From positions 1 to 54,346 of the forward strand of contig JAEUSP010000094.1 in assembly GCA_016788565.1 (NCBI GenBank): a stretch of 54,346 nt of DNA. Reading direction: 5' to 3'. The position numbers and the translations under genes are program-made. The notes beneath the pieces were generated by a model. It was not told the DNA's origin and did not search any database. It saw only the letters and a list, made by a program, of their open reading frames with translations. Positions 1 to 54,346 of this stretch are shown in pieces (positions within the stretch are counted from its first letter, which is position 1; every line of letters begins with the position of its first letter). The stretch is from Chlorobiota bacterium. GTDB taxonomy: Bacteria; Bacteroidota; Ignavibacteria; OLB7.

Positions 1-2510
1 GCTACCTCCAACTCGAGTTGCTCGGTTGGTGTCGGCGATGCTCCCTGCGTTTGGATGCTCACTTCTGCAGAGCCGCCAACGCCCACTCGGTACTCACGGC
101 CAATGCTGAACTCACGGTGCTGCGGCTGGCTCACCTCCACCAGCACACTGTCCTCTGCGCGGCAGCCTTCGGCGGTTTCTACCTGCACTCGGTAGGTGGT
201 GGTTGCTGTGGGGCTGGCAAGCGTTGTTTGGCAACTGTCGCAGCTGAGGCTCTCACTTGGAGTCCAGCGAACTCGCGAGATCGGGATGGAGGTTTCCACG
301 TGCAAGCTGGCGATGCTTCCCGAGCAGATGGTTGTGTCACCAACGGCAGTTGCTGTTGGTGGCTCGGCGACGCGAACGGTGATGCTGTCGCGAGCTATGC
401 AGCCGCTGGAGGTGAGTACGGTTGCGGTGTAGGTGGTGGTTCTCAGTGGACGAGCATCGGTCTCCGCGCAGCTGTCGCACGTCAAACCTTCGCTGGGACT
501 CCAACGGATATTTCCAACATCGAATCTTGCTTGCAGTTGCGTGGATTCACCTGCGCAAAGTTGAGTGTCGCCCTGCAAGCCAAGCGTGAGTTGCGGTTGC
601 GGGTGAACCACCACCAGCACCGAATCGCTCAACGGAATCCCACACGCTGTCACCCCTTGCAGGCGGTAGAGTGTTGTGGTCGTTGGGCGAGCTTCTGTCT
701 CCGCGCAGCTGTCGCAGGCGAGGCCAGTGGTGGGGGTCCATTGCACCCGTTGAATGCCAGCAGAAACCACTCCGCGAAGCATCACTCTTTCTCCGGCACA
801 GATGCTATCAACTGGCTCCACGCGCAGGCTGCCGCTGTCGGCTACGGTGACGTGAATGGTGTCGTGCGCAACGCAGCCGGTGCTGTTGCGGGCGGTGAGA
901 ATGTAGCTTGCCGATTGCCGAGGAACGGCGATGGGATCGGGGCAATTCCAGCAGGATAAATCGTTGGTGAACGCCCACGAGAGCGCGCCGCTCCCCGTGC
1001 CGTGCAACTGCAGAGTATCGCCCGAACAGATGCTGGTATCTCGCCCAGCACTCACCGTTGGCGGCGCAACCACACGAAGAGTTGCGCGGGCAGTATCGGA
1101 GCCGAACTCGTTGAAGACGATGAGTTCAACAGTAAAGGTTCCCGCCGAATCGTAGCAGAGCGGGGGTGGAATAACAAGCGTTGAAGTATCCGGCCATGCC
1201 CCGGGAAACCGCCACAACCTCCCCGACGGCAACCCAAACTGTGCCGATGGCCGCGAAGTATCCTGCAACCGAAAACACTCCCCCAAACAAACCACCGAAT
1301 CGCTGATAGTGAACCTCGCCTGAGGCGGCAAGCAGCGAATGGGGTTGGGGTCGTACCAGCTATCAACAAGGTTGGGGAGGGTACCGGCTGAGTATTCTTT
1401 CAAGTCCATCCAATGCTCGACATAGCCACAGGCAGGTGCTGGCTCGTTTGGGTGTTCAAGAACAGCAAGAGAATACCCCACCCCCCCAACCACAACCATG
1501 CCGTTCGGTGCTATTTGCAACATCAAGAACCTTCCTGTTTTATGCAAAACATCAAAGGTGGCGACCAGCGTTTTAGTAGATAAAAAATCTGTGACGTTCA
1601 GGTCGAACTGGAAGAGGCTATCACGATAGTCCTTCTCGTTGTATGGGCGAATAACATAGAGCTTGGAGCTGTTGGGGGAAAAACTGAGTCCAAATATCCA
1701 TCGTCCGATAGGGATGAGTTGAGAGTTTGAGACCTTGCCAGTGGTGTTATCAAAATCGGCAAGCTCAACGGTTCCATCCCACATGATGGCGGCTGCAAGT
1801 TTTTTTCCGTTGGGGGAGATTTTCAGGTAGCCACGAGCATTGTGGGTCATTTTATCACGGTACTCATGGTTCACCCCAGTGCGTGAGATCACCGGCTCAG
1901 CAATGCCAGTATCGCTGACATGGTAGGCGTAGTAACGGTCATCGTTCCACCCGTGGGCAAGCACCCAGTAGCCTTTGCCAGTGCAATCTTGGGTGGCTGC
2001 AAGTTTTTCGGCAGCAGGCTTAAAAAGGGGGATGTTTTTTTGCACAACATCACCCAACCCCTCATCACGTCGCATATCCACCACCGAGTAATTAATGCCT
2101 CGACGCTGCACACCAGCAGAGTCATCATAATAGGGCTGCCAGTCTGATGTGAAGATGTAGTAGAGCATGGTATCGGCGGGGTCGGGGACGATCAAGGCTG
2201 GTTGTGAGGTTGAACCATGTCCCCAAAGTCCACCAGCCGCAAAACTGGCATTGGGCATTCTCTTATGCTTCCGATTCCAAATCTCCATGCCATTAGTATA
2301 AAGTAGCCACTGCTTTCCGCTATGATCGGAAATACTTGCAATTCCCTCACCACCATCGAACGGATCACATCCCGGAAAGGGTGTTGGAGGTGTAGTATTG
2401 AAATCCAAGCCAACACTAACACTAATCCAGACATTTCCTTCCTTTTGTGCGCAGAGCAGCATGGTGGTACATAACCATGTTATTGTGAGCATCAGAATTT
2501 GTCGTTTCAT
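1..2510 (-). CDS. Secreted PKD/Ig-like repeat surface protein, 3' end outside window
   Basis: This minus-strand frame stays open for about 836 codons from an ATG at 2510 to the window edge, so the protein is C-terminally incomplete here. The start follows a GGAGAT ribosome binding site and encodes a signal peptide (MKRQILMLTITWLCTTMLLC, then AQ). Residues of roughly 25-380 look like the WD40/TolB-type segment that precedes PKD domains in Bacteroidota gliding and adhesin proteins, including a LPNLVDSWYDP segment that recalls the common 'LPNF..S' motif. A PKD-like domain follows (about 390-480). Then come at least four Ig-like repeats of about 75-80 residues, each with a CxxC near its middle (CWNC, CDSC, CDSC, CDSC). 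These repeats resemble SprB/CHU-type surface repeats. A T9SS sorting domain would be expected beyond position 1. The role is probably surface adhesion or motility; function is inferred from architecture only. Confidence 0.85.
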   Translation of the reverse strand, partial: MKRQILMLTITWLCTTMLLCAQKEGNVWISVSVGLDFNTTPPTPFPGCDPFDGGEGIASISDHSGKQWLLYTNGMEIWNRKHKRMPNASFAAGGLWGHGSTSQPALIVPDPADTMLYYIFTSDWQPYYDDSAGVQRRGINYSVVDMRRDEGLGDVVQKNIPLFKPAAEKLAATQDCTGKGYWVLAHGWNDDRYYAYHVSDTGIAEPVISRTGVNHEYRDKMTHNARGYLKISPNGKKLAAAIMWDGTVELADFDNTTGKVSNSQLIPIGRWIFGLSFSPNSSKLYVIRPYNEKDYRDSLFQFDLNVTDFLSTKTLVATFDVLHKTGRFLMLQIAPNGMVVVGGVGYSLAVLEHPNEPAPACGYVEHWMDLKEYSAGTLPNLVDSWYDPNPIRCLPPQARFTISDSVVCLGECFRLQDTSRPSAQFGLPSGRLWRFPGAWPDTSTLVIPPPLCYDSAGTFTVELIVFNEFGSDTARATLRVVAPPTVSAGRDTSICSGDTLQLHGTGSGALSWAFTNDLSCWNCPDPIAVPRQSASYILTARNSTGCVAHDTIHVTVADSGSLRVEPVDSICAGERVMLRGVVSAGIQRVQWTPTTGLACDSCAETEARPTTTTLYRLQGVTACGIPLSDSVLVVVHPQPQLTLGLQGDTQLCAGESTQLQARFDVGNIRWSPSEGLTCDSCAETDARPLRTTTYTATVLTSSGCIARDSITVRVAEPPTATAVGDTTICSGSIASLHVETSIPISRVRWTPSESLSCDSCQTTLASPTATTTYRVQVETAEGCRAEDSVLVEVSQPQHREFSIGREYRVGVGGSAEVSIQTQGASPTPTEQLELEV

Positions 2511-5246: not shown

Positions 5247-5303
5247 GGTGGCTCCCGCTCATACTTCGACGGGGCTCAGCATGAGCGGAGGGCGGGGTTT
5301 GGG
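5247..5303 (+). repeat. Dispersed hairpin repeat, family A copy 1
   Basis: This copy matches the consensus GGTGGCTC..GCTCATACTTCGACGG, then GGCTCAGCATGAGCGGAGGG. The arms CCGCTCAT and ATGAGCGG can pair. Eight further copies are found in this window. Confidence 0.85.
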
Positions 5304-17228: not shown

Positions 17229-17279
17229 GCGGGGAAAAGATTTGGGATCACCTTGAAGATGGGAAATCGGTGGCTTCTC

Positions 17280-17328
17280 GGTTCGGTGGCTCCGCTCATA
17301 CTTCGACGGGCTTCAGCATGAGCGGGGA
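17280..17328 (+). repeat. Dispersed hairpin repeat, family A copy 2
   Basis: TTCGGTGGCTCCGCTCATAC, then TTCGACGGGCTTCAGCATGAGCGG. It lies 50 bases after the stop codon of the ASH-repeat protein and before a convergent terminator. Confidence 0.85.
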
Positions 17329-28524: not shown

Positions 28525-28534
28525 CACACCGCGA

Positions 28535-28590
28535 ATCCAGCCCTCCGCTCATGCTGAGCCCCGTCGAAGTATGAGCGGAGCCTCCGAACT
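28535..28590 (-). repeat. Dispersed hairpin repeat, family A copy 3 (inverted)
   Basis: The reverse complement matches the family consensus (GGCTCCGCTCATACTTCGAC, then GGGGCTCAGCATGAGCGGAGGG). Confidence 0.85.
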
Positions 28591-38895: not shown

Positions 38896-39663
38896 ATGCT
38901 GCTACTCTGGAACACTGCTGGCCGCACGTTGAAGTTCTTCGTTTGCTGCTTGATGCTGCTGTTGGTTGGCCAACGGCTAACCGCACAGCCCGATCATCCC
39001 CCCGCCCCGCCCCCGCCCGACAGCACAGATGCCGGAACAACACTTCTTACCCCCCATCCGATTCCATCGGGTGAGCTTCGCACGGCGGTTGGGGGAACCA
39101 TCACCATCCTTCCGCGCATCGTGGTCGAAGAAGAGTTGCGGCAAGTGCCGATGCTGAACCTTGAGCTTCGATACGGCCTTCCACTCGGCTTTGCGGGGAC
39201 CGGACGGTTTAGCAGTAACGTCATCACCAACCTTGCTTCGGTTGGAGCCGAGTGGCGCGGACGGCTGGGGAGATTTTCCGCAAGCGCGGGCTACTCGGTA
39301 GCGTACTGGTACGGGTTTGCGGCGTTCGAAGGGTTTGCGGTGGATGCGCAAAGCTGGCTGACCTTTCCGGCAGTTAGCGCGGGGTTTGACTTTGATGATT
39401 TCCACCTGAGCGGGCGTGCCGAACTTCAGTTCGTCACCTCGCGAAGTTCGGCCACCGAAGGGATCGAAACGGGGTCCGACCGGAATGCGTTGGGGGGATA
39501 TGCCTTCACTGCCGCAATCGAGCAACCGTTCTGGGGCGCGACCAGCGCGATTATTGGGTTGAAGGTCTATTACTCCCGCTCGATGTATCAATCGTGGCTG
39601 GCGTTCAGCACGTTCAACGAATTTTTATTCTATCCTGAATTTCAGTTTGGGGTGATCCTATGA
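38896..39663 (+). CDS. Outer-membrane beta-barrel protein
   Basis: From the ATG at 38896 the 255-residue product has a signal peptide (LKFFVCCLMLLLVGQRLTAQ). A Pro-rich N-terminal spacer (DHPPAPPPPDSTDAG) is followed by a barrel of alternating strands (LNLELRYGLPLGFAGTGRFS, GRFSASAGYSVAYWYGFAAF, GFDFDDFHLSGRAELQFVTS, AIIGLKVYYSRSMYQSWLAF) and an aromatic end (FLFYPEFQFGVIL). The family is not recognised. Its stop overlaps the GDPD lipoprotein gene by four bases, so it opens a three-gene operon ending at 41539. Confidence 0.75.
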   Translation: MLLLWNTAGRTLKFFVCCLMLLLVGQRLTAQPDHPPAPPPPDSTDAGTTLLTPHPIPSGELRTAVGGTITILPRIVVEEELRQVPMLNLELRYGLPLGFAGTGRFSSNVITNLASVGAEWRGRLGRFSASAGYSVAYWYGFAAFEGFAVDAQSWLTFPAVSAGFDFDDFHLSGRAELQFVTSRSSATEGIETGSDRNALGGYAFTAAIEQPFWGATSAIIGLKVYYSRSMYQSWLAFSTFNEFLFYPEFQFGVIL

Positions 39664-40925
39664 GCCGTTTCTGCTTCCGATTCCACCTCCGATTTCTGCC
39701 GTTGTTGCTGTTGCTGGTGGTCGGTTCTTGCAGCACAGATTTCAATCCAACGATCCCCCAATTCTCCGACACCGAATCGCTGTTGGGGGGTGGCAAGCCA
39801 ATTCCCAAACAGTCCTTTGCGTGGATGAACGGCATCTATCTGGTTCGCAACGGCAGCGATCAGTTTGGCGATACCGTGGTGTTACGTTGGGGGGGGAACA
39901 GTCCCTCCATTTTCTGCGGAAAAAACTCCGCCTTTTTCATCCTTGAAGCGCGCAGTTTGGGGGATACGATCGTGTTTGAAGGATACTGGCGGTATGCCTA
40001 CCAGCAGGAAACCGGGCGCGTCCGGCTGTTCATTGCTCCGAACGAAGGGGGACATCAGATCAGCACTGGTTCGGATCAACCGTCGGCAATCACTATTCGT
40101 GGAGCATCGGGGGGAGTTGATGGAAACCTTCACCACCAGATTGTGATGGAACGGATACGCCCAATCAGGCAGGCAATCAAGAATTTCTGGATACTGGGCC
40201 ACCGTGGCGGCGGGCGAAACAGCGACCTTCATCCCGTCTCGGAAAACAGCCGCGAAATGATCCAGTTTGCCGAACGGTTGGGGTGTAACGGGGTTGAAAT
40301 TGACGTGCGGCTTACCAGCGATGGAGTGCCAATTTTATACCACGATGAAAAGCTGAACACCCGTTTGGTTCGTGGCGATTACATGGTGGGGGCCATCAGC
40401 AATTACGCATTCTGGCAACTGCGGCGGTTCACAACGCTGATTCACGGTGAACAAATACCAACGCTTGAGGAAGCCCTAGAGACAGCCGTGACAAAAACCA
40501 CTTTGAACTTTGTGTGGTTGGATATCAAATCCCCCGAAGTGATTCCGGCGATTATCCCGATGGTAGATTCGTTCAGGGTGAAGGCCACGCAGTTGGGGCG
40601 GAATATCGAGATTGTGATGGGGCTTCCGGAAGAAGATATCTACAACGCCTACCGGAATCTTCCCGAAGCAAACCGCCCGCCAGCACTCTGCGAACTTTCC
40701 ACCCAGCAGACGAACGACATCAACGCCGCGGTTTGGGCACCGCGCTGGACGCTTGGGACGCAGAATGCCGCGGTGGCAACCATGCACAGCAACAACCGCC
40801 GTGCTTTTGTCTGGACGCTGGATAGCCCGATCTATATCCTGCAATTTCTGCGCGAAGGGAGCTTCGACGGAATCTTGACGAACTACCCAACAGTGGTCGC
40901 CTACATGTACTACGTGAAAGAGTAA
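39660..40925 (+). CDS. Glycerophosphodiester phosphodiesterase-family lipoprotein
   Basis: The 421-residue product has a lipoprotein signal (LLLLLVVGSCS, lipidated C24). A first domain of about 150 residues is unrecognised (WMNGIYLVRNGSDQFGDTVV). The GDPD barrel starts near 176. It has the catalytic H181 in ILGHRGGGRNS, the metal ligands E213 and D215 in GVEIDVRLTSDG, and H228 in PILYHDEKLNT. It closes with WTLDSP and FDGILTNYPTVV. The enzyme would cleave glycerophosphodiesters to glycerol-3-phosphate in the periplasm or at the outer membrane. The N-terminal domain is an unusual addition. It overlaps the upstream outer-membrane protein gene and precedes another by five bases. Confidence 0.9.
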   Translation: MSRFCFRFHLRFLPLLLLLVVGSCSTDFNPTIPQFSDTESLLGGGKPIPKQSFAWMNGIYLVRNGSDQFGDTVVLRWGGNSPSIFCGKNSAFFILEARSLGDTIVFEGYWRYAYQQETGRVRLFIAPNEGGHQISTGSDQPSAITIRGASGGVDGNLHHQIVMERIRPIRQAIKNFWILGHRGGGRNSDLHPVSENSREMIQFAERLGCNGVEIDVRLTSDGVPILYHDEKLNTRLVRGDYMVGAISNYAFWQLRRFTTLIHGEQIPTLEEALETAVTKTTLNFVWLDIKSPEVIPAIIPMVDSFRVKATQLGRNIEIVMGLPEEDIYNAYRNLPEANRPPALCELSTQQTNDINAAVWAPRWTLGTQNAAVATMHSNNRRAFVWTLDSPIYILQFLREGSFDGILTNYPTVVAYMYYVKE

Positions 40926-41818: not shown

Positions 41819-44242
41819 ATGAACGATCACGTACCCTTTTCTCGCCTCCTTCTGTGTGCCTTCTTGCTGTTTGCCTTCCACCGCCCGGCGGCGGCGCAAC
41901 CCGGGGAAGACAACCAATTTTGGGATGGAAATTTTAGCTGGAACGGCGTGGGGGGGCTTGTGCTTGCCATTGCCAATAACGCTTGCAACACCTACGTGGC
42001 GGGGCAATTCGCCAGCGAAATTGGGCAAACCAACTACGTGGCTGCCTGGAACAACGGAAGCTGGTCAATCCTGGGAAGCGGGGCCAACAGCAGCGCGAAC
42101 GGCACAATCCTTGCGCTTGCGGCAAACGGAGTCGAGGTGTATGCTGGCGGGAACTTCACAACGATTGATGGCGTTGCCGCAGCCCGCATTGCCCGCTGGG
42201 ATGGCGGCGGGTGGCTGCCACTATCGGGCGGGGTTAGTGGCGGGATTGCCACCACCATCAACTCCATCGTCGTCAACGGCAGCGATCTGTATGTTGGCGG
42301 GCGTTTCAGCAAGGCGGGTGACGTTGCCGCGCGGAACATCGCCCGCTACGATGCCCGCACTGGAACATGGCACCCGCTGGGGGATGGAGTAAACGGAACC
42401 GTCAATTCGATAGCCCTGCATGGCGATGAACTGTTCGTTGGCGGAAACTTCACCCAAGCCGGCGATCAGCCCGCTTCGATGGTGGCGCGCTGGCAACACT
42501 CAACCGGAAAATGGTCGGCAATGGGGAAAGGGATGGATCAAGAAGTCCGCGCACTGGCCTTGATTGGCGACGACCTGTATGCCGGCGGATTGTTCATCCG
42601 TGCCGACGACGAACTGATCTTCTACATCGCCCAATGGAACCTTCGGAACCCAGGCTGGCGCGCAGTTGCCGGCGGCGTGAACGACCGCGTGTACACCCTG
42701 GCCAACAACGGCTTCACACTCTACGCTGGCGGACGATTCACGGTGGCAGGAAACCGACCGGCCCGCTACATCGCCCAGTTAGGAACCAACGGAACATGGA
42801 GCCAAGTTGGCAACGGCGTGAACGACACCGTCTATGCCATTGCCCCCTGCGATGAACGAATCTGCGTTGGCGGCGCGTTCACCCTTGCCGACTCCACCCC
42901 GGTGGATTATCTGGCCGCATGGGATGGGAGCAGATGGAGTTCCTTCCGCAACACTGCCAACAACGGGACCAACGATCATATCTACGCCATTGCTCCGCTG
43001 GGGAACAACAATATCATTGCTGGCGGGCGATTCACGGTGGCGGGGAACCAAATGATAGGCTACATCGGCCAGTGGGACGGAACCGAATGGCAGCCCCTTA
43101 CCACCGGGCTTGATGGCCCCGTCCATGCCGTGGTTGCCCGCGATGGACGTGTGTATGTTGGCGGCCAGTTCAACTACGCCGGAAATATCTACTCACCCAA
43201 CGTGGCCTGGTTTGATGTTGCGACCCGAACGTGGCACGCAATCAACGGCGGCACAAACGGGACCGTCCACGCGCTGGCCACCGACGGGAAGGATTTGTAC
43301 GTTGGCGGCCAGTTCAGCAATGCTGGCGGGGTGGCCGCCGCAAACATTGCCCGTTGGAACATCACGAACGGCAGCTGGTCGGCAATGGGGAACGGATTCA
43401 ACAACACCGTGAACGCCCTTGCCGTTCGGGCGGCCGGCGAAGTGTATGCTGGCGGCCAATTCACCAACGCGGGGGGAATACCCGCAGCACACATTGCTGC
43501 TTGGAACGGAAACGACTGGAACCAAGTTGGCTCCGGATTCGACTCCACTGTTTATGCCCTCACGCTGTTTTTGGGCGACCTGTACGCTGGTGGAAATTTC
43601 CGCAGTTCGGGGGGGATGGTGGTGAACGGTGTGGCGCGGCTTGGCGGAACCGAGTGGCTTCCGATGGCCGGCGGCGTTACCGAAGGGGGTGTTGGAACCT
43701 CCGTCCGCGCGCTGGCACCAGGGCGTGGCGGGCTGTATGTTGGCGGTGAGTTCAGCCTTGCCGGCGGCCGCCCGGCCAACTACATCGCCATTTGGGACGG
43801 CGAAACGTGGACCACGCTGGGGACCGGAGTAAGCGGCTCGCTCCCGACAGTGTATGCCATTGGAGCAACCAACAACGCCTTGTATGTGGGGGGCGATTTC
43901 TCGATAGCAGGCTTCAAACCCAGCAACCACTTGGCCCGATGGACGCGGTTAGTTGGCCCAAGCGGAACCGCCGCCGAATCATCCGCAAAATTTTTCAGCA
44001 TCACCCCAAATCCGGCATCGGGCCAAGCGTTGTTGCGGATGGAGACCCAGGCCGCAAGCAACGCCACTATCCGGCTGGTGAACTCTGCAGGCCAGGTTGC
44101 CGCCACCATCTTTGCTGGCGAACTCCCTTCCGGACCTCACACTCTTTCCCTCCCCCTTTCCCTCCTCCCTGCTGGCGTATATCTCTGCGTGGCCAACATT
44201 GGTGGTGAGGTTCGGACGGAGAAGATTGTGGTGGGGGAATGA
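41819..44242 (+). CDS. T9SS-secreted 14-repeat 'YxGGxF' protein 1
   Basis: The 807-residue product has a signal peptide (LLLCAFLLFAFHRPAAAQ) and then 14 repeats of about 50 residues. The repeat consensus is NGTVxALAxxGxDLYVGGxF, then TxAGGxxAxNIARWDGxxWx, then LGxG; examples are LYVGGRFSKAGDVAARNIAR and LYVGGQFSNAGGVAAANIAR. The pattern fits beta-propeller blades. The C-terminus is a T9SS sorting domain (FSITPNPASGQALLRMETQA to GVYLCVANIGGEVRTEKIVV). Unlike the next two genes it lacks the N-terminal 'DGxLNLS' module. It is the first of three tandem paralogs on the plus strand and follows the GDPD operon by 279 bases. Function is unknown. Confidence 0.85.
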   Translation: MNDHVPFSRLLLCAFLLFAFHRPAAAQPGEDNQFWDGNFSWNGVGGLVLAIANNACNTYVAGQFASEIGQTNYVAAWNNGSWSILGSGANSSANGTILALAANGVEVYAGGNFTTIDGVAAARIARWDGGGWLPLSGGVSGGIATTINSIVVNGSDLYVGGRFSKAGDVAARNIARYDARTGTWHPLGDGVNGTVNSIALHGDELFVGGNFTQAGDQPASMVARWQHSTGKWSAMGKGMDQEVRALALIGDDLYAGGLFIRADDELIFYIAQWNLRNPGWRAVAGGVNDRVYTLANNGFTLYAGGRFTVAGNRPARYIAQLGTNGTWSQVGNGVNDTVYAIAPCDERICVGGAFTLADSTPVDYLAAWDGSRWSSFRNTANNGTNDHIYAIAPLGNNNIIAGGRFTVAGNQMIGYIGQWDGTEWQPLTTGLDGPVHAVVARDGRVYVGGQFNYAGNIYSPNVAWFDVATRTWHAINGGTNGTVHALATDGKDLYVGGQFSNAGGVAAANIARWNITNGSWSAMGNGFNNTVNALAVRAAGEVYAGGQFTNAGGIPAAHIAAWNGNDWNQVGSGFDSTVYALTLFLGDLYAGGNFRSSGGMVVNGVARLGGTEWLPMAGGVTEGGVGTSVRALAPGRGGLYVGGEFSLAGGRPANYIAIWDGETWTTLGTGVSGSLPTVYAIGATNNALYVGGDFSIAGFKPSNHLARWTRLVGPSGTAAESSAKFFSITPNPASGQALLRMETQAASNATIRLVNSAGQVAATIFAGELPSGPHTLSLPLSLLPAGVYLCVANIGGEVRTEKIVVGE

Positions 44243-44315
44243 TTGGAGTGTCGAGTGTCGAATGCCGAGTGTCGAATGCCGAGTGTCGAATGGGGAAATT
44301 TTTACCGAACTCAGT

Positions 44316-44360
44316 CCCCCGCTCGTGCTTCGACATTCGCTCAGCATGAGCGGAGGACAG
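44316..44360 (+). repeat. Dispersed hairpin repeat, family A copy 4 (degenerate)
   Basis: CCGCTCGTGCTTCGACATTC, then GCTCAGCATGAGCGGAGGAC. It has mismatches in the left arm compared with the other copies. Confidence 0.7.
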
Positions 44361-44410
44361 GATTCGGTGGTGGATGCAGACGGATTTCTCCGGAACTCAA
44401 CTCTATCACG

Positions 44411-44471
44411 GTCATCGCGAGGAGTCTTCGACGAAGCGATCTCGCGCGTTTCTGGGATGGCATCGGACACA
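44411..44471 (+). repeat. Dispersed repeat family B copy 1
   Basis: GTCATCGCGAGGAGTCTTCG, then ACGAAGCGATCTCGCGCG, then TTTCTGGGATGGCATCGGAC. The core CTTCGACGAAG is palindromic, and GCGAG/CTCGC arms flank it. Two more copies lie at 51033 and 51326. Confidence 0.85.
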
Positions 44472-44514
44472 ATGCTCGGCGCCGACCCGTCGGGGCGATG
44501 ACGATACTTCGCTG

Positions 44515-44575
44515 TTCGGTGGCTCGGCTCATACTTCGACGGGGCTTAGCATGAGCGGAGGGCGGCGTTTGGTAA
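44515..44575 (+). repeat. Dispersed hairpin repeat, family A copy 5
   Basis: TTCGGTGGCTCGGCTCATAC, then TTCGACGGGGCTTAGCATGA, then GCGGAGGGC. It lies 44 bases after the family B copy. Confidence 0.85.
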
Positions 44576-44586
44576 ACGGAATTTGG

Positions 44587-44631
44587 CATTCTTCATTCGA
44601 CATTCGACATTCAACATTCGACATTTCCATC
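44587..44631. repeat. ATTCGACATTC leader array before 14-repeat gene 2
   Basis: CATTCTTCATTCGACATTCG, then ACATTCAACATTCGACATT, abuts the start codon at 44632. The first 35 bases are nearly the same as those before iscS (30676-30708). Confidence 0.85.
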
Positions 44632-47322
44632 ATGCCCATGCGTTTCCTTCTTCACATCCTTCTGTTCATTGGTGGCGCGGCTTCGTTGCTGGCGCAGGGC
44701 GGGGCCGTTCGTTCTGCCCAGGCCCGCCCGTTAGGTGAGTTGCTTCGGGAGGATGGCTCGCTGAATCTTTCCACTCAGTTTCGTGGCCAGCTTGACCCCG
44801 CCGGCTGGCAACTCACCCTTGCCCCCGACGGCTCTCCCCGTTTCCAAAAATCCAACTCCTCCCTTCTGGCTGCGCACCCCGATGATGTGTATTGGGACGA
44901 ACGCTTCAATATCGGCGGGGCCGGCGGCGCAATCTACACGGTGGCGATTAGCGGTTGCGATGATATTTACATCGGCGGGCGGTTCACGTTTATCGGCGAT
45001 ATCATCGCCAACAACATTGCCCGTTGGGATGGCCGCCAGTGGTCCACCCTGGGCGATGGGCTGCGCGCCGACGGTCGGAACGGAGCCGTCACCGCAATCG
45101 TGGCCAACGGCGAAGATGTGTACGTTGGCGGCGCGTTCGATTCCGCCGGAACAAAGGAAGCCACCAACGTTGCCCGCTGGACCGGGCTGGATTGGGTGAC
45201 GCTTGGTGCCGGATTGGGCCGTGCCGGCGACACCGTCCTGGCACTGGCCGTTGATGGGAACACACTATTTGCCGGCGGCAGGTTTGTTGTTAGCGGAAGC
45301 CTGACCACCGGCCCGATTGCCCGTTGCGATTTGGGAAACTACCGCTGGACTGCGATGGGACCAGGGCTTGGCGGCGATACTAGCTTCGTGGCCGACATTG
45401 CCCTGTATGGCCAGGACCTGTTTGTTGGCGGGAAGTTCACCCGTGCCGGCCAGCTTCAACTGAAAAATCTTGCCCGCTGGAACGCCACAACCGCTTCATG
45501 GCGTGATGTTGGCGGCGGCGCGAACGGCATTGTGGAAGCGGTCGCCGTGCAGGGGAACGACCTGTACGTTGGCGGAAATTTCACCCAAGTGGGAAGCACC
45601 CCAGCGGCCAATATCGCCCAGCGCAATCTTACCGAAGGGACCTGGCACCCACTGGGAAGCGGGCTGAGCGGCGGCGTTACCGGGATTGATATCACCGGTG
45701 GGCGCGTGTTTGCCGTGGGCCGTTTCCGCAACGCCGGAACCCAGGCCGTGAACCGCATCGCAGTCTGGGAAGCCGGAAACTGGGCGCGGCTGGGGAAATC
45801 GGAAGACATCGGTTTGAACAACGATGCCTACGATGTCGTGATCGGCGGAACGAACGTCTATATGGTCGGGAAATTTACCCGCGCCGGAAGCCTGGGGGCC
45901 TACGGAGCCGCATTCTGGAACCTTGCCACACGCACCTGGGGGAGCTTCGATATCACCGTTGGCGAAGGGGTGAACGGGCCGATTTACGCAATCGGAATCA
46001 ACGGGCGCGACGTGTACGTTGGCGGCCGATTCAGCATTGCCGGAAGCATCCGCGCCAACGCCGTGGCAAAATGGAATGGGCTTGCCGGCGCGTGGTCGCC
46101 GCTGGGAACCGGCGTTGGTGTGGTTGATACCACCACCGGCTCCACCCCGGTCGTCTATGCCATTGATGTGAACGGGCGCGACGTCTATGTTGGCGGCCGA
46201 TTCGACCGCGCCGGCAGCGTGGAATCGCACAACATCGCCCACTGGAACGGCGGCGTTTGGCGTTCAATGAACGAAGGAATCGGCTACAATTATCAAGGAG
46301 GAACCTACGATTCTGCCTCGAAAGTTTTTGCCGTGGCCGTACGCAACAACGAGGTGTTCGTTGGAGGTCAATTTGACCTTGCCGGAGGCCAGCGCGCCAA
46401 CCGCGTGGCGCGGTGGGATCAGGCCACGCAAACATGGTCGCCGCTGGGGAACGGGTTGGGCGGAAGCAGTTTCTACACCTTCGCCCAAGCCATTGCTGCC
46501 GATGCCGACAACGTCTATGTTGGCGGTGTCTTCCCCACCGCCGGGAATGTGAACGCCAAAAACATTGCGCGGTGGGATGGCACCAAATGGAATATCTTGG
46601 GCACCGGAAACCAGAACGGCGTGAACAACTCCGTTTATGCCATTCAAATTACCAAGGATGGTAGCGTGGTGGTTGGCGGCGATTTCACCATTGCCGGGGC
46701 AACCCCCGTCAAGAACATCGCCATTTGGCAAAACAACGCCTGGCGGGATGTTGGCGGCGGGGTCAACGGAAAAGTCTATGCCATTGACACCGCCAACGAT
46801 GGCATCTACGTTGGCGGCAGTTTCAACCTGGGCGGCAACCAAGTCCTTTCCCGGATTGGACGCTGGGATGGAGCGGCATGGAGCAGTTTAGGAAGCGGAG
46901 TTGGGCGGGTTGGCAACGGCGAAATTGTTGTTCGCGCAATCGGAAGCACCGGACCGGAAGCCTATGCCGGGGGTGAGTTCACCCTTGCCGGAAGCCACCC
47001 TTCCTACAACATCGGGCGCTGGTTCAAAGGGTTGCCGGGGATGATCTCCGCTGCCGATGATCCAAACCCAACAACGGAAACCAGCAATCAAACTATTTAC
47101 TTCAGCCGTGCTTCCGGGGGGCTTCAGCTTCGCGGATATTTCCCCCGCCCCGCCACGCTTCAACTGCTGAACCTGCGCGGCGAACAAGCCGCCGCCACGC
47201 TTCACGTGGAAGGGGCGCAAGCCCAGTTGTGGGATGCAACCCAGCTTCCAGCCGGACTCTATTTCTGCCGCATCCTGATGGAAGGCCAAGCCAAATCCAT
47301 CCCGGTGATGATTGCTAAATAA
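44632..47322 (+). CDS. T9SS-secreted 14-repeat 'YxGGxF' protein 2
   Basis: I start at ATG 44632 (a second ATG is at 44638) because both lead directly into a signal peptide (MRFLLHILLFIGGAASLLAQ). The 896-residue product has an N-terminal module of about 65 residues (LLREDGSLNLSTQFRGQLDP, then AGWQLTLAPDGSPRF) shared with protein 3. It then has 14 repeats of about 50 residues (such as VYVGGAFDSAGTKEATNVAR and IYVGGSFNLGGNQVLSRIGR). A type A sorting domain closes it (FSRASGGLQLRGYFPRPATL to GLYFCRILMEGQAKSIPVMI). Upstream the frame is open as far as 44374, but that part is made of dispersed repeats. It is likely an extracellular beta-propeller protein of unknown binding target. Confidence 0.85.
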   Translation: MPMRFLLHILLFIGGAASLLAQGGAVRSAQARPLGELLREDGSLNLSTQFRGQLDPAGWQLTLAPDGSPRFQKSNSSLLAAHPDDVYWDERFNIGGAGGAIYTVAISGCDDIYIGGRFTFIGDIIANNIARWDGRQWSTLGDGLRADGRNGAVTAIVANGEDVYVGGAFDSAGTKEATNVARWTGLDWVTLGAGLGRAGDTVLALAVDGNTLFAGGRFVVSGSLTTGPIARCDLGNYRWTAMGPGLGGDTSFVADIALYGQDLFVGGKFTRAGQLQLKNLARWNATTASWRDVGGGANGIVEAVAVQGNDLYVGGNFTQVGSTPAANIAQRNLTEGTWHPLGSGLSGGVTGIDITGGRVFAVGRFRNAGTQAVNRIAVWEAGNWARLGKSEDIGLNNDAYDVVIGGTNVYMVGKFTRAGSLGAYGAAFWNLATRTWGSFDITVGEGVNGPIYAIGINGRDVYVGGRFSIAGSIRANAVAKWNGLAGAWSPLGTGVGVVDTTTGSTPVVYAIDVNGRDVYVGGRFDRAGSVESHNIAHWNGGVWRSMNEGIGYNYQGGTYDSASKVFAVAVRNNEVFVGGQFDLAGGQRANRVARWDQATQTWSPLGNGLGGSSFYTFAQAIAADADNVYVGGVFPTAGNVNAKNIARWDGTKWNILGTGNQNGVNNSVYAIQITKDGSVVVGGDFTIAGATPVKNIAIWQNNAWRDVGGGVNGKVYAIDTANDGIYVGGSFNLGGNQVLSRIGRWDGAAWSSLGSGVGRVGNGEIVVRAIGSTGPEAYAGGEFTLAGSHPSYNIGRWFKGLPGMISAADDPNPTTETSNQTIYFSRASGGLQLRGYFPRPATLQLLNLRGEQAAATLHVEGAQAQLWDATQLPAGLYFCRILMEGQAKSIPVMIAK

Positions 47323-47381
47323 TCTTGAACTCAGCACTTGAACTTTAGAAAACAGCAAACCAAGAAATAACCCTTTCAGCC

Positions 47382-50129
47382 ATGAAACCGATGCGACAAC
47401 TTCTACCATTGCTTCTGATGTTGGCGATTGCTCCATTGCTCAACCCGCTTGCTGCGCAAGTAACGCCAGCAGAAATTGAGTTGGACGGCCAAGCAAAAAT
47501 CCCCCTGGAGCGAATACTGAATCCCGATGGAACCGTCAATCTCTCCGCAGGCATCCAGGGGACGCTGGACCCGAAGGGGTGGCGAATGACGGTAGATCAC
47601 TACGGCCGCCCACGATTTGTGCAAGCCGATGGCACGATGGGCGTTGCCTCGGTTGCCAGCAAGCCGGGCGATGAGCAATGGGACGACCGTTTTGGACAAG
47701 GTGCCGACCAGGGGGGGCTAAACGATGAAGTGTTTGCCGCTGCGGTGTTCAACAAATGGTTGTTTGTTGGCGGGGCGTTCACCCAGGCCGGCTCGAAAGC
47801 ACTGAACTACATTGCCCGTTGGGACGGCTCGGCATGGCAATCGCTTGGCGATGGCCCGCTGAACGGAACCGACGGCTTCGTCTATTCCCTTGCCCTGCGG
47901 AGCGACATCCTGTACGTTGGCGGGAAATTCTCCATGGCGGGCGGCGTTCCGGTGAAGAACATCGCCCAATACTCCATCAGCCAACGGGTGTGGGCCGGGA
48001 TGGGTCCGTTTGGCCCAAGCCCAGTGGGATTGGGGGGAGATGAGCAAGCGTTTGTTGGAGCAATTTTGGTGAAAGACACACTGGTCTATGCCGGGGGCAG
48101 CTTCAACGATGCCAACGGAACAACGGTGAAAAACCTTGCCGTCTGGAGCCTTTCGCAGAAACGGTGGTCGGCGGTTGGCGATCCCGGAAGCGGTGTAAAC
48201 GGAACGGTGAATGCCATTGCCACGCTGAAATCCAAAATTTTTATCGGTGGAAACTTCAGCTCGGTTGGCTCGGTCCCCGCAAGCGGCATTGCTCGCTGGG
48301 ATGGCGCAAAGTGGTCGGGGTTGGGGAACGGAGTCAACGGTTTTGTGAATGCCATTGGGGTGATGGGGGACACACTGTTCGTTGGCGGAAGTTTCTCGAT
48401 GGCTGGCGATAGCGGCGCGAAAAATATCGCCCGCTGGGAAGAAGACTCCATCCGCTGGACCCCCGTCACTGGGGTCTATCAACTGTGGGACTCCATCGCC
48501 CCGTTCCGCGAAGATGACGGCGTGAACGGCATTGTTCGCTCCATCGTCGTCAGCGGGCGCAAGGTCTATGTTTCGGGAACCTTCCAATCGGTCTTCCCCG
48601 GGCAGTACACGTTGAACCGGGTTTATTGCGGCTACGTTGCGGTCTGGAATGAGCTTCCCGAATCGAACATCTGGTGGCAAACGCTCGGCTACGGGTCGCG
48701 CGCCGGGACCGATGGCTTCGTCAATGCGGTTGCCCTAAAAGATGATGACGTGTATGTGGCCGGCAGCTTCACCACTGCTGGCGGTGAGCCGTCGGCGCGG
48801 GTGGCGCGTTACTCCGCCGGGCGGTGGTTCCCGTTCAACAACAACAGCAACGGAACGGTGACAACCATTGCCCGTTTTGGCGAGGATATTTATGCCAGCG
48901 GGAAATTCCGCGCCGGCGCGACCGCGAACCCACTGGATGTGAACATCGCTTCGTTAAACGGCAACGTCTGGTCCAACCTTTCCGGAACCGTCACCGGCCC
49001 GGTCTATTCCATGATCGGCCACGGCGACGACCTCTACATCGCTGGCTCCTTCCGCTCGGGGAACGGCTTGGCAGCCAACAACATCGTCCGTTGGAACAAA
49101 ACCACCAACGATTGGTCGCTGCTGGGAACCGGGGTGAATGCCCCAACCATTGCGTTTATTTCCAGCATGGTACTCAAGGACGACAAGCTGTACGTTGGCG
49201 GATTGTTCGACACCGCCGGGACCACCCTGGCCCAGAATGTTGCGGTGTGGGATTTGACCAACAAAGCATGGTCCAAACTGGGGGAAGGGATTGATGGAGT
49301 AGTGCTTTCGCTGGCAATGGACGATGCCGGAACCCTGTACGCTGGCGGGCGATTTCTGCGGGCCGGCGGAAAACCAGCCAGCAACGTTGCCCGCTGGGAC
49401 GGAACCACCTGGACCCCGCTTGACAGCGGCTTGAACCAGACAGTGTTCACAGTTTCTGTCCGTGGAAATTACCTGCACGCTGGCGGCGATTTCACCGCTT
49501 CCGGATTGCAGCCGCTTGCTCACATTGCCGTTTGGAATATCGAGCAGAAGCATTGGTTCGGCTTGGGCAGCGGCATCGGCGGACACTTTGCCCCCTACGT
49601 GAACGCAATGGCATGGCGCGGCCCGGACCTGTACGCCGGTGGATATTTCTCACTTGCCGGGGGGGATAGCGCGGCGAACGTTGCACGCTGGGATGGCACC
49701 CAGTGGCGACCATTGGGAAGCGGCGTGAACGGAACCGTGCGTGGGATGATCTCCATCGGCAACGACATCTACTTCAGCGGGACCTTCACCAACGCCGGGG
49801 CGAAGGCTTCGTTCTACTTCGGCATCTGGCACGAGGCTCCACTGTCGGCTCCGAACGCACCCGCTTCTGCTGTTCGCGGGTTGCGCAGTTGGCCAAACCC
49901 AACAACCGGCGCAGGGCAGATTGGATTCACGCTGCAACGCCCAACCCACGTCACGGTTGAGGTGGTGAACCTTCGCGGCGAAGTAATCTCAACGCTTCAC
50001 AACGGCATGTTGTATGCTGGCGACCACATCGTCACCCACAACCTGTCGGCCCTTCCCAACGGAACCTATCTCTACCGCCTAAACGCCGAAGGCCGCACCA
50101 GCAGCGGAATGGTCACAGTAGCAAAGTAA
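47382..50129 (+). CDS. T9SS-secreted 14-repeat 'YxGGxF' protein 3
   Basis: The 915-residue product has a signal peptide (LLPLLLMLAIAPLLNPLAAQ). Next comes the module shared with protein 2 (LERILNPDGTVNLSAGIQGT, then LDPKGWRMTVDHYGRPRF). Fourteen repeats follow (for example LYVGGKFSMAGGVPVKNIAQ and LYAGGRFLRAGGKPASNVAR); several central units replace GG with SG or AG. It ends in a type A sorting domain (RSWPNPTTGAGQIGFTL to GTYLYRLNAEGRTSSGMVTV). It lies 59 bases after protein 2 and may share its transcript. Compared with its neighbour the repeats are diverged, so the duplication is old. Confidence 0.87.
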   Translation: MKPMRQLLPLLLMLAIAPLLNPLAAQVTPAEIELDGQAKIPLERILNPDGTVNLSAGIQGTLDPKGWRMTVDHYGRPRFVQADGTMGVASVASKPGDEQWDDRFGQGADQGGLNDEVFAAAVFNKWLFVGGAFTQAGSKALNYIARWDGSAWQSLGDGPLNGTDGFVYSLALRSDILYVGGKFSMAGGVPVKNIAQYSISQRVWAGMGPFGPSPVGLGGDEQAFVGAILVKDTLVYAGGSFNDANGTTVKNLAVWSLSQKRWSAVGDPGSGVNGTVNAIATLKSKIFIGGNFSSVGSVPASGIARWDGAKWSGLGNGVNGFVNAIGVMGDTLFVGGSFSMAGDSGAKNIARWEEDSIRWTPVTGVYQLWDSIAPFREDDGVNGIVRSIVVSGRKVYVSGTFQSVFPGQYTLNRVYCGYVAVWNELPESNIWWQTLGYGSRAGTDGFVNAVALKDDDVYVAGSFTTAGGEPSARVARYSAGRWFPFNNNSNGTVTTIARFGEDIYASGKFRAGATANPLDVNIASLNGNVWSNLSGTVTGPVYSMIGHGDDLYIAGSFRSGNGLAANNIVRWNKTTNDWSLLGTGVNAPTIAFISSMVLKDDKLYVGGLFDTAGTTLAQNVAVWDLTNKAWSKLGEGIDGVVLSLAMDDAGTLYAGGRFLRAGGKPASNVARWDGTTWTPLDSGLNQTVFTVSVRGNYLHAGGDFTASGLQPLAHIAVWNIEQKHWFGLGSGIGGHFAPYVNAMAWRGPDLYAGGYFSLAGGDSAANVARWDGTQWRPLGSGVNGTVRGMISIGNDIYFSGTFTNAGAKASFYFGIWHEAPLSAPNAPASAVRGLRSWPNPTTGAGQIGFTLQRPTHVTVEVVNLRGEVISTLHNGMLYAGDHIVTHNLSALPNGTYLYRLNAEGRTSSGMVTVAK

Positions 50130-50953: not shown

Positions 50954-51012
50954 GTTCGGTGGCTCACGCTCATACTTCGACGGGGCTTCAGCTTGAGCGG
51001 AGAGCTGGGTTC
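50954..51012 (+). repeat. Dispersed hairpin repeat, family A copy 6
   Basis: TTCGGTGGCTCACGCTCATA, then CTTCGACGGGGCTTCAGCTT, then GAGCGGAGAGCTGGGTTCGG. Confidence 0.85.
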
Positions 51013-51032
51013 GGTGGAGTTGACTCCACCCT

Positions 51033-51094
51033 GTCATCGCGAGGAGTCTTCGACGAAGCGATCTCGCGCGTTGCTGGGATGACATCGGACACAC
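51033..51094 (+). repeat. Dispersed repeat family B copy 2
   Basis: GTCATCGCGAGGAGTCTTCG, then ACGAAGCGATCTCGCGCGTT, then GCTGGGATGACATCGGACAC. It follows a family A copy by 20 bases. Confidence 0.85.
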
Positions 51095-51099
51095 TGCTG

Positions 51100-51233
51100 G
51101 CCCCGAATGGGGCGACAGAGTTCACCGGCACCAGCAATTCTTCCGCCCGCTACGGGGCTGTCCAACCGAAATGTTTTTGTGATCCCCAAGGCTTACGCCA
51201 TTGGGCTAAGCTGGCTGTCGCCCCATTCGGGGC
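51100..51233. mobile_element. 134-bp element with 19-bp perfect terminal inverted repeats
   Basis: The ends GCCCCGAATGGGGCGACAG (51100-51118) and CTGTCGCCCCATTCGGGGC (51215-51233) are perfect inverted repeats. Inside is a second imperfect hairpin, CCCAAGGCTTACGCCATTGGG (51185-51205). It encodes no protein. The structure fits a MITE- or REP-like element; no transposase is visible and I cannot see a target duplication. Confidence 0.5.
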
Positions 51234-51250
51234 TTTGGTGGCTTCGCCAT

Positions 51251-51310
51251 CCGGTGGCTCCACTCATACTTCGACGGAGCTCAGCATGAGCGGAGGGCTG
51301 GGTTCGGTGG
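51251..51310 (+). repeat. Dispersed hairpin repeat, family A copy 7
   Basis: CCGGTGGCTCCACTCATACT, then TCGACGGAGCTCAGCATGAG, then CGGAGGGCTGGGTTCGGTGG. Confidence 0.85.
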
Positions 51311-51325
51311 AGTTGACTCCACCCC

Positions 51326-51390
51326 GTCATTGCGAGGAGTCTTCGACGAAGCGATCTCGCGCGTTTCTGGGATGGCATCGGACACACTGC
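51326..51390 (+). repeat. Dispersed repeat family B copy 3
   Basis: GTCATTGCGAGGAGTCTTCG, then ACGAAGCGATCTCGCGCGTT, then TCTGGGATGGCATCGGACAC. As at 51033 it follows the family A unit and GGAGTTGACTCCACC. Confidence 0.85.
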
Positions 51391-51474
51391 CACACGCGGG
51401 ATCGCCACGTCGCTCAACGCTCCTTGTCAAAGACCCCGACCCGTCGGGGCGATGACGAAGAAGAGGGTTACTCC

Positions 51475-51530
51475 GTTCGGTGGCTCCACTCATACTTCGA
51501 CGGGGCTCAGCATGAGCGGGGTTCGCGGTG
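51475..51530 (+). repeat. Dispersed hairpin repeat, family A copy 8
   Basis: GTTCGGTGGCTCCACTCATA, then CTTCGACGGGGCTCAGCATG, then AGCGGGGTTCGCGG. Confidence 0.85.
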
Positions 51531-51800
51531 GTCAGTGGTCAGTGGTGAGTTTCCGGCTTTGTCTTCATTTCACTCTTCCCACCTCACTCTTCACTCTTCG
51601 CTTCGGCTCCCTCTCCCACCCGACGAATGTGAGGCAACCAGCAGCTTCACCCACTTGGGAGAGGGCGGGGGGTGAGGGCAGGCAGCGAAGGGCTGAGTTC
51701 AGAATCTTTCCCTCCTCCCATCTCACTCTTCTACTCCCCCTCCTTATTTTGCCGGCCACAAAAGAAAAAAAAAGAAGTTTCTCTTCTCCAATCCAACACC

Positions 51801-54158
51801 ATGGCCAATCCCGACCCAACCCTTGTCGAACTCCGCGCCGCCGCCGAAGCCGCTGCCACCCCGGCCGAACGCGCCAACGCACTGAACCAGCTTGCTGAAG
51901 CATTAGAGAAGCACAGCCAATACACCGAAAGCCTTGCCGCAGCCGAGGAAGCCTACGGGCTTGCCCAGCAAGTCGAAGCCCCGGCAGCCGAATCAGCGGC
52001 GTTGCGGTTGCAGGGAGTGGTTTATGCGCGCAGAGGTGAGTATAGCGAGGCGTTGCGGTTGTTCGAACAATCACAGAATCTCTGCGAAAAAATTGGCGAC
52101 CGCTCCGGGGTGGCCCGTGTTACCGGCAATATCGGGCTTGTGTACCAGAACCTTGGAGAGTATGGGAAGTCGTTGGAGTATTACACCCGTGCACTTGATG
52201 AAGAACTTGACAACCGCTCTCATGTTGCCAATGTTACCGGCAATATCGGACTTGTGTATCAAAGCCGTTCGGAGTATGGGAAGTCGTTGGAGTATTCCAC
52301 CCGTGCGATTGCCTTGCATGAAGAAATTGGAAATCGTTCTGGGGTGGCCCGTGTTACCGGGAACATCGGGAGCGTGTACTTGGATCTTGGGGAGTATGGG
52401 AAGTCGTTGGAGTATTCCACCCGTGCGATGGCTCTCCACGAAGAACTTGGCGATCGTTCCGGGGTGGCTCGTGTTACCGGGAACATCGGGCTTGTGTACC
52501 AGAATCTTGGTGAGTATGGGAAGTCGTTGGAGTATTACACCCGTGCGATGGCTCTGTTGGAAGAGCTTGGAAATCGGGATGGTGTGGCGATTGTTACCGG
52601 CAATATCGGGAATGTGTACCAAAGCCTTGGTGAGTATGGGAAGTCGTTGGAGTATTACACCCGTGCGATTGCCCTGCATGAAGAGCTTGGCGAGCGTTTC
52701 GGGGTGGCTCGTGTTACCGGGAACATCGGGAATGTGTACCAATCCCTTGGCGAGTATGGGAAGTCGTTGGAGTATTACACCCGTGCGATGGCTCTGCATG
52801 AAGAGCTTGGGGATCGTTCCGGGGTGGCGATTGTTACCGGCAATATCGGGATTGTGTACGCACTCCTTGGTGAGTATGGGAAGTCGTTGGAGTATTTCAC
52901 CCGTGCGATGGCTCTGCATGAAGAGCTTGGCGAGCGTTCCGGCCTGGCCCGTGTTACCGGGAACATCGGGATTGTGTACCAGAATCTTGGGGAGTATGGG
53001 AAGTCGTTGGAGTATTACACCAGCGCGATTGCTCTGCATGAAGAGCTTGGCCAGCGTTCCGGCGTGGCGAGTGTTACCGTGAACATCGGGATTGTGTACC
53101 AAGAACTTGGGGAGTATGAGAAGTCGTTGGAGTATTTCACCCGTGCGATGACCTTGAAGGAAGAACTTGGTGAGCGTTCCGGGGTCGCGAGTGTTACTAC
53201 CAACATCGGCGACCTCTACGCTCAGAAAGAGTTTGCCGACTACAACCCAACCAAAGCCGAAACACTCCTCCAGCAAGCAATCACCCTACACCAAGAATTA
53301 GGAACAAAGCAGGCACTCTACACAAGCCACGAAGCCTTAGCCAACCTCTACGCCCAAGAGAACCGCTGGGAAGAAGCCCTGCAACAGTACAAAAAATATC
53401 ACGAGGCCTACGGCGAGGTTCACACCGAGGAAGCACTGAAGAAGGCAGCCCAAGTTGAACAGCAACGCCAAGTTGCCGAGCTGGAGAAGCGCATCGCCAT
53501 TGAACGCGCCCGCGCCAAAGCCACCGAAGAATTACTCCACAAAACCCTCCCGCCAAGCATCGCCAACCGGATTATCGCTGGCGAGCAAAACATTGCCGAC
53601 CGCTTCGATTCCGCCAGCGTGTTGTTCGCTGATGTCGTCGGCTTCACCCCGATGACCGCACAGATGCCCGCCAGCGCGGTGCTGGAGTTCATGAACTTCG
53701 TCTTCGCTCACTTCGACGGGATAGCCGCCAAGCATGGCTGCGAGCGAATCAAGACAATCGGCGATGGCTACATGGCCGTTTGCGGCGCGCCGGTGGAGTG
53801 CGAGAACCACGCCGAGCGAATCGCGAGAATGGCGATGGAGATGCTGGTGGATGTGAAGCTGCCAGCAAGCATCACCGAGCATTTGCCAGCAGGAGTGGAG
53901 TTTGAGATTCGGATCGGTTTGCACACCGGAAGCATCACCGGCGGAGTGATTGGTGTTGGGAAGCTGGCCTACGACATCTACGGCGACACCGTGAACACGG
54001 CCAGCCGGATGGAGAGCCACGGCGAAGCGGGGAAGATTCACGTGAGCGAAGAGTTTGCAAGTGCGGTTGGGAGCAGCTTCAGTTTTACGGAACGTGGAGA
54101 GTTGGAGGTGAAGGGGAAGGGACTGCTGCGGACGTATTTTTTGGAGGTGGGGAGTTGA
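51801..54158 (+). CDS. TPR-containing class III adenylate cyclase
   Basis: The 785-residue soluble protein (start ATG 51801; upstream codons are repeat DNA) makes a cyclic nucleotide from its C-terminal domain. Metal-binding D611 lies in LLFADVVGFT and D655 in KTIGDGYMAV. K651 and D725 (YDIYGD) are the residues that favour ATP over GTP, and N732/R736 lie in VNTASRMES, so cAMP is the likely product. Residues about 30-500 form a TPR array, including nine near-identical 40-residue units (consensus TGNIGxVYQxLGEYGKSLEY, then YTRAxALHEELGxRSGVAxV). A coiled coil (about 545-590, QQRQVAELEKRIAIERARAK) links the two parts, as in dimeric cyclases. The array probably senses a protein partner. There are no membrane segments or signal peptide. 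Confidence 0.94.
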   Translation: MANPDPTLVELRAAAEAAATPAERANALNQLAEALEKHSQYTESLAAAEEAYGLAQQVEAPAAESAALRLQGVVYARRGEYSEALRLFEQSQNLCEKIGDRSGVARVTGNIGLVYQNLGEYGKSLEYYTRALDEELDNRSHVANVTGNIGLVYQSRSEYGKSLEYSTRAIALHEEIGNRSGVARVTGNIGSVYLDLGEYGKSLEYSTRAMALHEELGDRSGVARVTGNIGLVYQNLGEYGKSLEYYTRAMALLEELGNRDGVAIVTGNIGNVYQSLGEYGKSLEYYTRAIALHEELGERFGVARVTGNIGNVYQSLGEYGKSLEYYTRAMALHEELGDRSGVAIVTGNIGIVYALLGEYGKSLEYFTRAMALHEELGERSGLARVTGNIGIVYQNLGEYGKSLEYYTSAIALHEELGQRSGVASVTVNIGIVYQELGEYEKSLEYFTRAMTLKEELGERSGVASVTTNIGDLYAQKEFADYNPTKAETLLQQAITLHQELGTKQALYTSHEALANLYAQENRWEEALQQYKKYHEAYGEVHTEEALKKAAQVEQQRQVAELEKRIAIERARAKATEELLHKTLPPSIANRIIAGEQNIADRFDSASVLFADVVGFTPMTAQMPASAVLEFMNFVFAHFDGIAAKHGCERIKTIGDGYMAVCGAPVECENHAERIARMAMEMLVDVKLPASITEHLPAGVEFEIRIGLHTGSITGGVIGVGKLAYDIYGDTVNTASRMESHGEAGKIHVSEEFASAVGSSFSFTERGELEVKGKGLLRTYFLEVGS
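52098..53208 (+). repeat. Near-identical 120-bp tandem repeats within the cyclase gene
   Basis: Nine units share TATGGGAAGTCGTTGGAGTA and GTTACCGGGAACATCGGG at a 120-base period. The first unit is six bases shorter. Many silent positions are also identical between units, which indicates recent expansion or gene conversion. Confidence 0.9.
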
Positions 54159-54346
54159 GGTTGGAGTGCTTCTCGATTCGGTGGCTCACGCTCATACTTC
54201 GACGAAGCTCAGCATGAGCGGCGGGCTGGGTTCGGAGGTTGCTTCTCTTTGGAATTACTCCGTGCTTCAGCGCGGAGATTCCGTGCCACCTCACTTCCAC
54301 TCTTCCGTTCCTTCTCGGCTTTGGCCCCCTCTCCCAGCTGACGAAT
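54159..54346. other. Right-end spacer with family A repeat
   Basis: No gene is seen. It contains one family A hairpin (54176-54236) and the phrase CTCTCCCAGCTGACGAA at the very end, which resembles CTCCCACCCGACGAATGT at about 51609, so another copy of that mosaic probably begins here. Confidence 0.6.
54176..54236 (+). repeat. Dispersed hairpin repeat, family A copy 9
   Basis: ATTCGGTGGCTCACGCTCAT, then ACTTCGACGAAGCTCAGCAT, then GAGCGGCGGGCTGGGTTCGG. It follows the cyclase stop codon by 17 bases. Confidence 0.85.

Follow-up and report, generated by a model that had tools for sequence, protein, structure and literature searches.

The window, the whole 54,346-nucleotide stretch of DNA analyzed here, carries three tandem genes whose products we refer to as proteins A, B, and C. 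Protein A is encoded by the ORF at 41819–44242 (807 aa) and protein C by the ORF at 47382–50129 (915 aa). The frame of protein B (896 aa) is open from 44374, with a likely start at 44632 and its end at 47322. The features of the locus are as follows.

41819..44242, + strand: protein A, with a signal peptide, 14 units, and a T9SS sorting tail (Rax2 143.7 bits, TIGR04183 31.6 bits; structure model)
41906..41938, + strand: N-terminal strand d0 of A, residues 30–40 (W35, F39), which would complete blade 14 in ring 2
41939..42949, + strand: ring 1 of A as predicted, units 1–7, approximately residues 41–377 (alignment with the TLE1 WD40 ring over 41..372; profile units)
42950..43954, + strand: ring 2 of A as predicted, units 8–14, approximately residues 378–712 (alignments with single seven-bladed rings over 31/34..711/717)
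44000..44233, + strand: T9SS type A sorting domain of A (36.4 bits)
44632..47322, + strand: protein B, with a signal peptide, 14 units, and a weak T9SS-like tail (14.4 bits, cut-off 23; Rax2 127.7 bits)
44887..44913, + strand: putative N-terminal strand d0 of B, near YWDERFNI (sequence and signature test)
44914..45954, + strand: units 1–7 of B, putative ring 1 (unit profile; ring by homology with A and C)
45955..47031, + strand: units 8–14 of B, putative ring 2 (unit profile; ring by homology with A and C)
47382..50129, + strand: protein C, with a signal peptide, 14 units, and a T9SS sorting tail (Rax2 133.7 bits, TIGR04183 29.2 bits; structure model)
47670..47699, + strand: N-terminal strand d0 of C, near QWDDRFGQG (W100, F104), which would complete ring 2 (aligned ranges 95/99..819/822, ~270 residues aligned)
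47700..48842, + strand: ring 1 of C as predicted, units 1–7 (unit profile and model; ring alignment by exclusion)
48843..49841, + strand: ring 2 of C as predicted, units 8–14 (unit profile, model, and ring alignments)
49890..50102, + strand: T9SS type A sorting domain of C (33.4 bits)
44319-44573; 5243-5302; 17274-17325; 28532-28589; 50954-51106; 51242-51519; 54169-54235: positions of a dispersed repeat

The dispersed repeat, 50–75 bp long, lies in several intergenic gaps of the window around CTTCGACGGGGCT.AGCATGAGCGGAGG and TCGCGAGGAGTCTTCGACGAAGCGATCTCGCGCG. One of these gaps separates the genes for A and B; it measures 389 bp here vs. ~160 bp in the orthologous locus of SJ842, a relative described below. 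Upstream of the triple, 39660–40925 encodes a protein of the glycerophosphodiester phosphodiesterase family with a lipoprotein-like start. We also noted an 828-aa protein (51672–54158) that has many consecutive TPR repeats and ends in an adenylate/guanylate cyclase domain.

A first-pass annotation, made from the sequence alone, had counted 14 repeats by eye in each of the 807-, 896-, and 915-residue proteins and had described their sequences as having diverged a lot. The strict pattern [LVI][YF].GG.F matched 11 times in A, 10 in B, and 8 in C; since this motif undercounts, unit profiles were used for counting instead. A profile built from A, B, and C found 14 units in each protein, with individual units scoring 31–75 bits. 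A second scoring, whose threshold was set on shuffled sequences, gave 14/14/14 again, so the count by eye holds under both procedures. The unit is Rax2/kelch-like and ~49 residues long (consensus TGSWSALGSGVNGTVYALAVSGGDLYVGGSFTTAGGVPANNIARWNGSSW), and units are spaced 46–63 residues apart in the three proteins. The description of their divergence was also correct, as A is only 35% identical to B and 33% to C.

All three proteins scored far above the Pfam curated cut-off for Rax2 (PF12768; 28.8 bits), and their matches to kelch and DUF5122 families in Pfam were weaker than those to Rax2. Kelch_6 (cut-off 25.3 bits) was exceeded in A (34.2 bits) and C (46.5 bits), and B remained below it (13.7 bits). 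No WD40 family was found among the Pfam matches of A, B, and C at E-values up to 1.

Signal peptides are evident by eye in A, B, and C, in agreement with the first reading. The same reading had assigned a T9SS sorting domain to all three proteins, and this stood for A and C, whose TIGR04183 scores exceed the curated cut-off of 23 bits, but not for B. The tails of B orthologs are likewise weak (16.9 and 18.1 bits), hence B can only be said probably to carry a T9SS sorting tail, and its export is presumed. A gene for the T9SS translocon is present in the same genome (SprA_N, 118.7 bits, in a 2214-aa frame), along with at least 150 matches to the T9SS-tail family.

Structures of A and C were predicted with AlphaFold2, that of A with a 40-sequence alignment. 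The model of A had a mean pLDDT of 89.7 and a pTM of 0.72; that of C had a pLDDT of 83.4 and a pTM of 0.53, which makes the relative placement of its rings uncertain. Against solved single seven-bladed propellers, the A model aligned over 265–282 residues at 2.3–3.0 Å, mostly 2.3–2.8 Å. The aligned ranges were of two kinds: 41..372 (TLE1; 265 residues, 2.4–2.5 Å) and approximately 31/34..711/717 (RACK1 and many others). As ~275 residues were aligned within the latter ranges, they must consist of the N-terminal strand plus the second half of A. The C model gave a range of this second kind with single seven-bladed rings (95/99..819/822, ~270 residues aligned). In strand d0 of A, the DSSP assignment shows bridge residues close to W35 and F39, and the ring-2 aligned ranges begin at residue 29–34. 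The known 2 × 7 protein 2YMU aligned to the A model over 538 residues (Z 28.8, rmsd 6.0). Whole-chain Foldseek superpositions on long targets, in which the rmsd is large, were left out of the evidence on ring arrangement.

Two closed seven-bladed rings were thus found in the predicted models of A and C only. The first-pass annotation had left the choice between a pair of seven-bladed propellers and a single large closed array; the former is well supported as a prediction, since both models contain rings that can be overlaid on complete seven-bladed propellers. From the aligned residue ranges, together with a linker signature in units 1 and 8, we infer that the two rings would be interlocked, with the N-terminal strand completing ring 2. 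On the simplest reading of the models, ring 1 would comprise units 1–7, and ring 2 would comprise units 8–14 plus the N-terminal strand. The strand order in the sequence would also permit two serial seven-bladed rings, each closed by itself and not interlocked (the N-terminal strand closing ring 1 and the strand that precedes unit 8 closing ring 2), and 7-unit homologs must close in this way. We nevertheless consider such an arrangement rather improbable. The best alignments start at the N-terminal strand (residues 31–34 in A and 95–99 in C), end at the last blade (711–717 and 819–822, respectively), and cover only ~270 residues, so that the N-terminal strand would belong to ring 2; moreover, the linker of unit 1 is unlike that of 7-unit proteins.

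The linker signature was read from 49 proteins with 14 units. Units 1 and 8 have a longer stretch from the W strand to the core (median 24 vs. 21–22; p = 4e-7 and 3e-4, which, like the p values below, count related proteins as independent and are indicative only). The canonical W..LG.G is kept in 8% of units 1 and 37% of units 8, against 51–76% for the other units, and the linker from strand d to strand a is atypical in units 1 and 8 only. In unit 1, W..LG.G is present in nine of 20 7-unit proteins vs. four of 49 14-unit proteins (p = 0.001, indicative), and a looser N-terminal W-x(2,4)-F/Y test pointed in the same direction (41/56 vs. 8/24, p = 0.001, likewise indicative). Similarity between units peaks at an offset of seven, mostly via units 1 and 8, and the spacing between units 7 and 8 is the most irregular. 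In sequence terms, units 1 and 8 mark the two points at which the chain would pass from one interlocked ring to the other.

These features also bear on the other option of the first reading, a single closed ring of 14 blades. In A and C, the unit spacing gives no clear sign of a linker separating unit 7 from unit 8, and the N-terminal strand could in principle close a large ring. Yet the ~270-residue sets in both models fit complete seven-bladed rings at ~2.5 Å, which would not be expected of an arc, and single-ring homologs have 7 units. The boundary features common to units 1 and 8 argue against the single large ring as well, as does a homolog (L078) whose 156-residue spacing falls precisely at the step from unit 7 to unit 8. 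We therefore give a 14-bladed ring hardly any credence.

The number of units was tabulated across homologs in one phylum sample, in which 48 of 296 genomes have PF12768 matches; from these genomes we took 87 ORFs in which units were clearly matched. Unattended scoring gave 14 units in 49 ORFs and 7 in 20, that is, 69/87 on 7 or 14. When overlong gaps were filled by a fixed rule, the numbers rose to 54 and 22, respectively (76/87). Hand reading of the 18 ORFs left by unattended scoring assigned eight to 14 and five to 7, found three to be cut, and left two off the lattice. With three ORFs dropped (contig end, frameshift, or short ORF), the hand tally came to 57 ORFs with 14 units (29 genera) and 25 with 7 (16 genera), so that 82 of 84 countable ORFs sit on the lattice; this tally was made with the lattice in mind, and the mechanical figure of 76/87 gives a fairer picture. 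The ORFs are related to one another and were picked by their Rax2 match, hence we claim no significance value for independent events.

The clearest exception is an ORF (L102, 4715–8086) with 13 very similar, evenly spaced units, which might be real or an assembly collapse. Another, L116, is a doubtful exception with probably 13 units by hand and 11 by unattended count. Separately, we noted three ORFs (L085, L073, and L137) that still have 14 units although these are very uniform, which suggests recent blade amplification.

The tabulation showed that unit numbers are not freely variable. The first-pass annotation had read the fixed count as a structural constraint, and in this respect the homologs, sitting on 7 and 14, bear it out; the rule is, however, better phrased as multiples of seven than as fourteen. 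Since most related proteins of the phylum have 7 or 14 units, it would be the wheel-like form of the propeller that sets the number of repeats. An open, solenoid-like repeat of free length, with 14 reached by chance in these paralogs, would be in keeping with the variable copy number of many secreted repeat proteins and with the 13 near-identical units of L102. Such a repeat would not be expected to cluster on 14 and 7 over 29 and 16 genera, nor to hold the lattice even where units are very uniform (L085, L073), and the predicted rings are closed. We judge it exceedingly improbable.

Four further full-length paralogs are encoded in the genome, two adjacent on one contig (C70) and one each on two others (C107 and C133), and the profile found 14 units in each. 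A lipoprotein-like paralog of 444 aa on contig C113 (L034, 4255–5589) has ~7 units by hand and is probably a single propeller; its unit 2 is degenerate, and automatic counts ranged from 6 to 8. An alignment of the seven full-length paralogs offered no stretch conserved enough for scanning the sequence collection. A tree of half-rings was mixed, in that most halves had the corresponding half of another protein as their nearest neighbor and those of approximately a dozen proteins were nearest to their own other half. We considered a single ancient doubling as the sole origin of the 14-unit proteins, and in view of this tree we claim no single history.

A single-protein scan returned one relative, the MAG SJ842, which carries the A-B-C triple in the same order at 87–92% identity, with 14 units in each protein. 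This closest named relative (L138) was deposited as "Armatimonadetes bacterium SJ842"; the genome of the window has SprA and many T9SS tails, and the deposited label may be wrong. Against the SJ842 orthologs, dN/dS was 0.135, 0.094, and 0.091 for A, B, and C, respectively, and the substitutions spare the glycines of the motif and the phenylalanine of the core. This computation supports purifying selection on all three genes. The triple also occurs in the same order in a genome of the same family (G128), at 39–42% identity over aligned codons and with 14 units in each protein. The gene downstream of the triple in the window, of the peptidase C26 family, is shared with SJ842, and the surroundings in G128 differ; with the triple conserved as a unit, the neighboring genes gave no clue to function. 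Between the close orthologs, substitution rates differ by ring: 5% in ring 1 and 16% in ring 2 of A, 9% and 3%, respectively, in B, and equal rates in the rings of C. As a lead only, a conserved contact may be carried by different rings in different paralogs.

Collectively, our results lead us to favor, with good though not complete confidence, the view that A, B, and C are T9SS-delivered, interlocked double-propeller binding scaffolds of 2 × 7 blades in which a change by a single blade is selected against. In this mechanism, 14 four-stranded Rax2/kelch-like blades would form two interlocked seven-bladed rings from units 1–7 and units 8–14. The protein's own N-terminus (the "WDxRF" strand) would supply the outer strand for the final blade in ring 2, and blade 7 would retain its own following strand. 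A single chain could then close both rings only with 14 units, or one ring with 7, so that gain or loss of single blades would be selected against. The signal peptide would export the protein, which would fold into interlocked rings and pass the outer membrane via T9SS by means of its C-terminal tail. The exported protein would present two propeller faces and act, attached to the surface or released, as a binding scaffold, which we consider its most likely role. The first-pass annotation had proposed a role of this kind, perhaps toward glycans or proteins.

Seven-bladed kelch-type rings include enzymes, for example galactose oxidase. It is conceivable that A, B, and C share the fold described here and serve as enzymes or signaling sensors instead of binding scaffolds, and the best whole-length Foldseek matches, albeit at low TM-score and large rmsd, included the sensor domains BT4663 and BT4673 of Bacteroides thetaiotaomicron (4a2m and 3ott). 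However, no convincing catalytic family was matched in Pfam or NCBIfam and no signaling domain was seen in A, B, and C, and the C-terminus of A and C is a T9SS tail. We regard an enzyme or sensor role as unlikely, though it retains some weight beside that of a binding scaffold.

In some proteins of the superfamily, the blades are very uniform or the halves are mutually nearest neighbors. A tentative extension of the scaffold model, to which we give less than even weight, is that interlocked closure acts as a length filter: blades would be copied and replaced, and only totals of 7 and 14 would persist. If so, the family would offer a natural setting in which to measure how fold topology sets the number of repeats while amplification continues, and rare 13-unit forms would be intermediates or strand-exchanging oligomers.

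The 7/14 rule and the signature in units 1 and 8 could help to locate ring boundaries, to design constructs, to detect genes that were misassembled, and to study the evolution of blade number, and clear domains are now defined for expression and testing. Many exported proteins whose sole annotation is "T9SS sorting domain" or "Rax2/kelch" could be recognized as defined propellers of seven blades, single or double. In the literature that we searched, we found no description of this rule and boundary signature in this exported family. Nor did we find literature on bacterial Rax2-type propellers or T9SS kelch propellers, in a search mostly outside subscription papers that gives a weak indication.

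Rax2 is a fungal bud-site marker with a role in cell polarity. A, B, and C belong to the same family, the Rax2 C-terminal beta propeller domain (PF12768); unlike fungal Rax2, they are bacterial proteins with signals for export and a layout fixed at 14 units. Their best sequence-profile matches among solved structures were the kelch propellers IVNS1ABP, KLHL12, and KEAP1 (E-value 3e-11 and weaker), which, unlike A, B, and C, are eukaryotic single rings. The Foldseek matches BT4663 and BT4673 differ from them in being sensor domains of two-component systems. The closest parallels in layout are WD40 proteins. In Pwp2 (PDB 5I2T), ring 2 consists of residues 4–11 and 344–706, an arrangement said to conform to that seen in other tandem WD repeats (PMC5466602). 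Pwp2 resembles the layout that we propose, with two seven-bladed rings of which the second is completed by an N-terminal strand, as would be the case in A, B, and C. By contrast, tandem WD40 proteins such as Pwp2 are intracellular, whereas A, B, and C combine a Rax2/kelch-like repeat with export signals. WRAP (Npun_R6612, PDB 2YMU) provides a solved structure in which 14 blades form two seven-bladed propellers (PMC6805158); its blades are WD40 and nearly identical, whereas those of A, B, and C have strongly diverged. A, B, and C are thus a Rax2/kelch-like family in a double-propeller layout already known from WD40 proteins.
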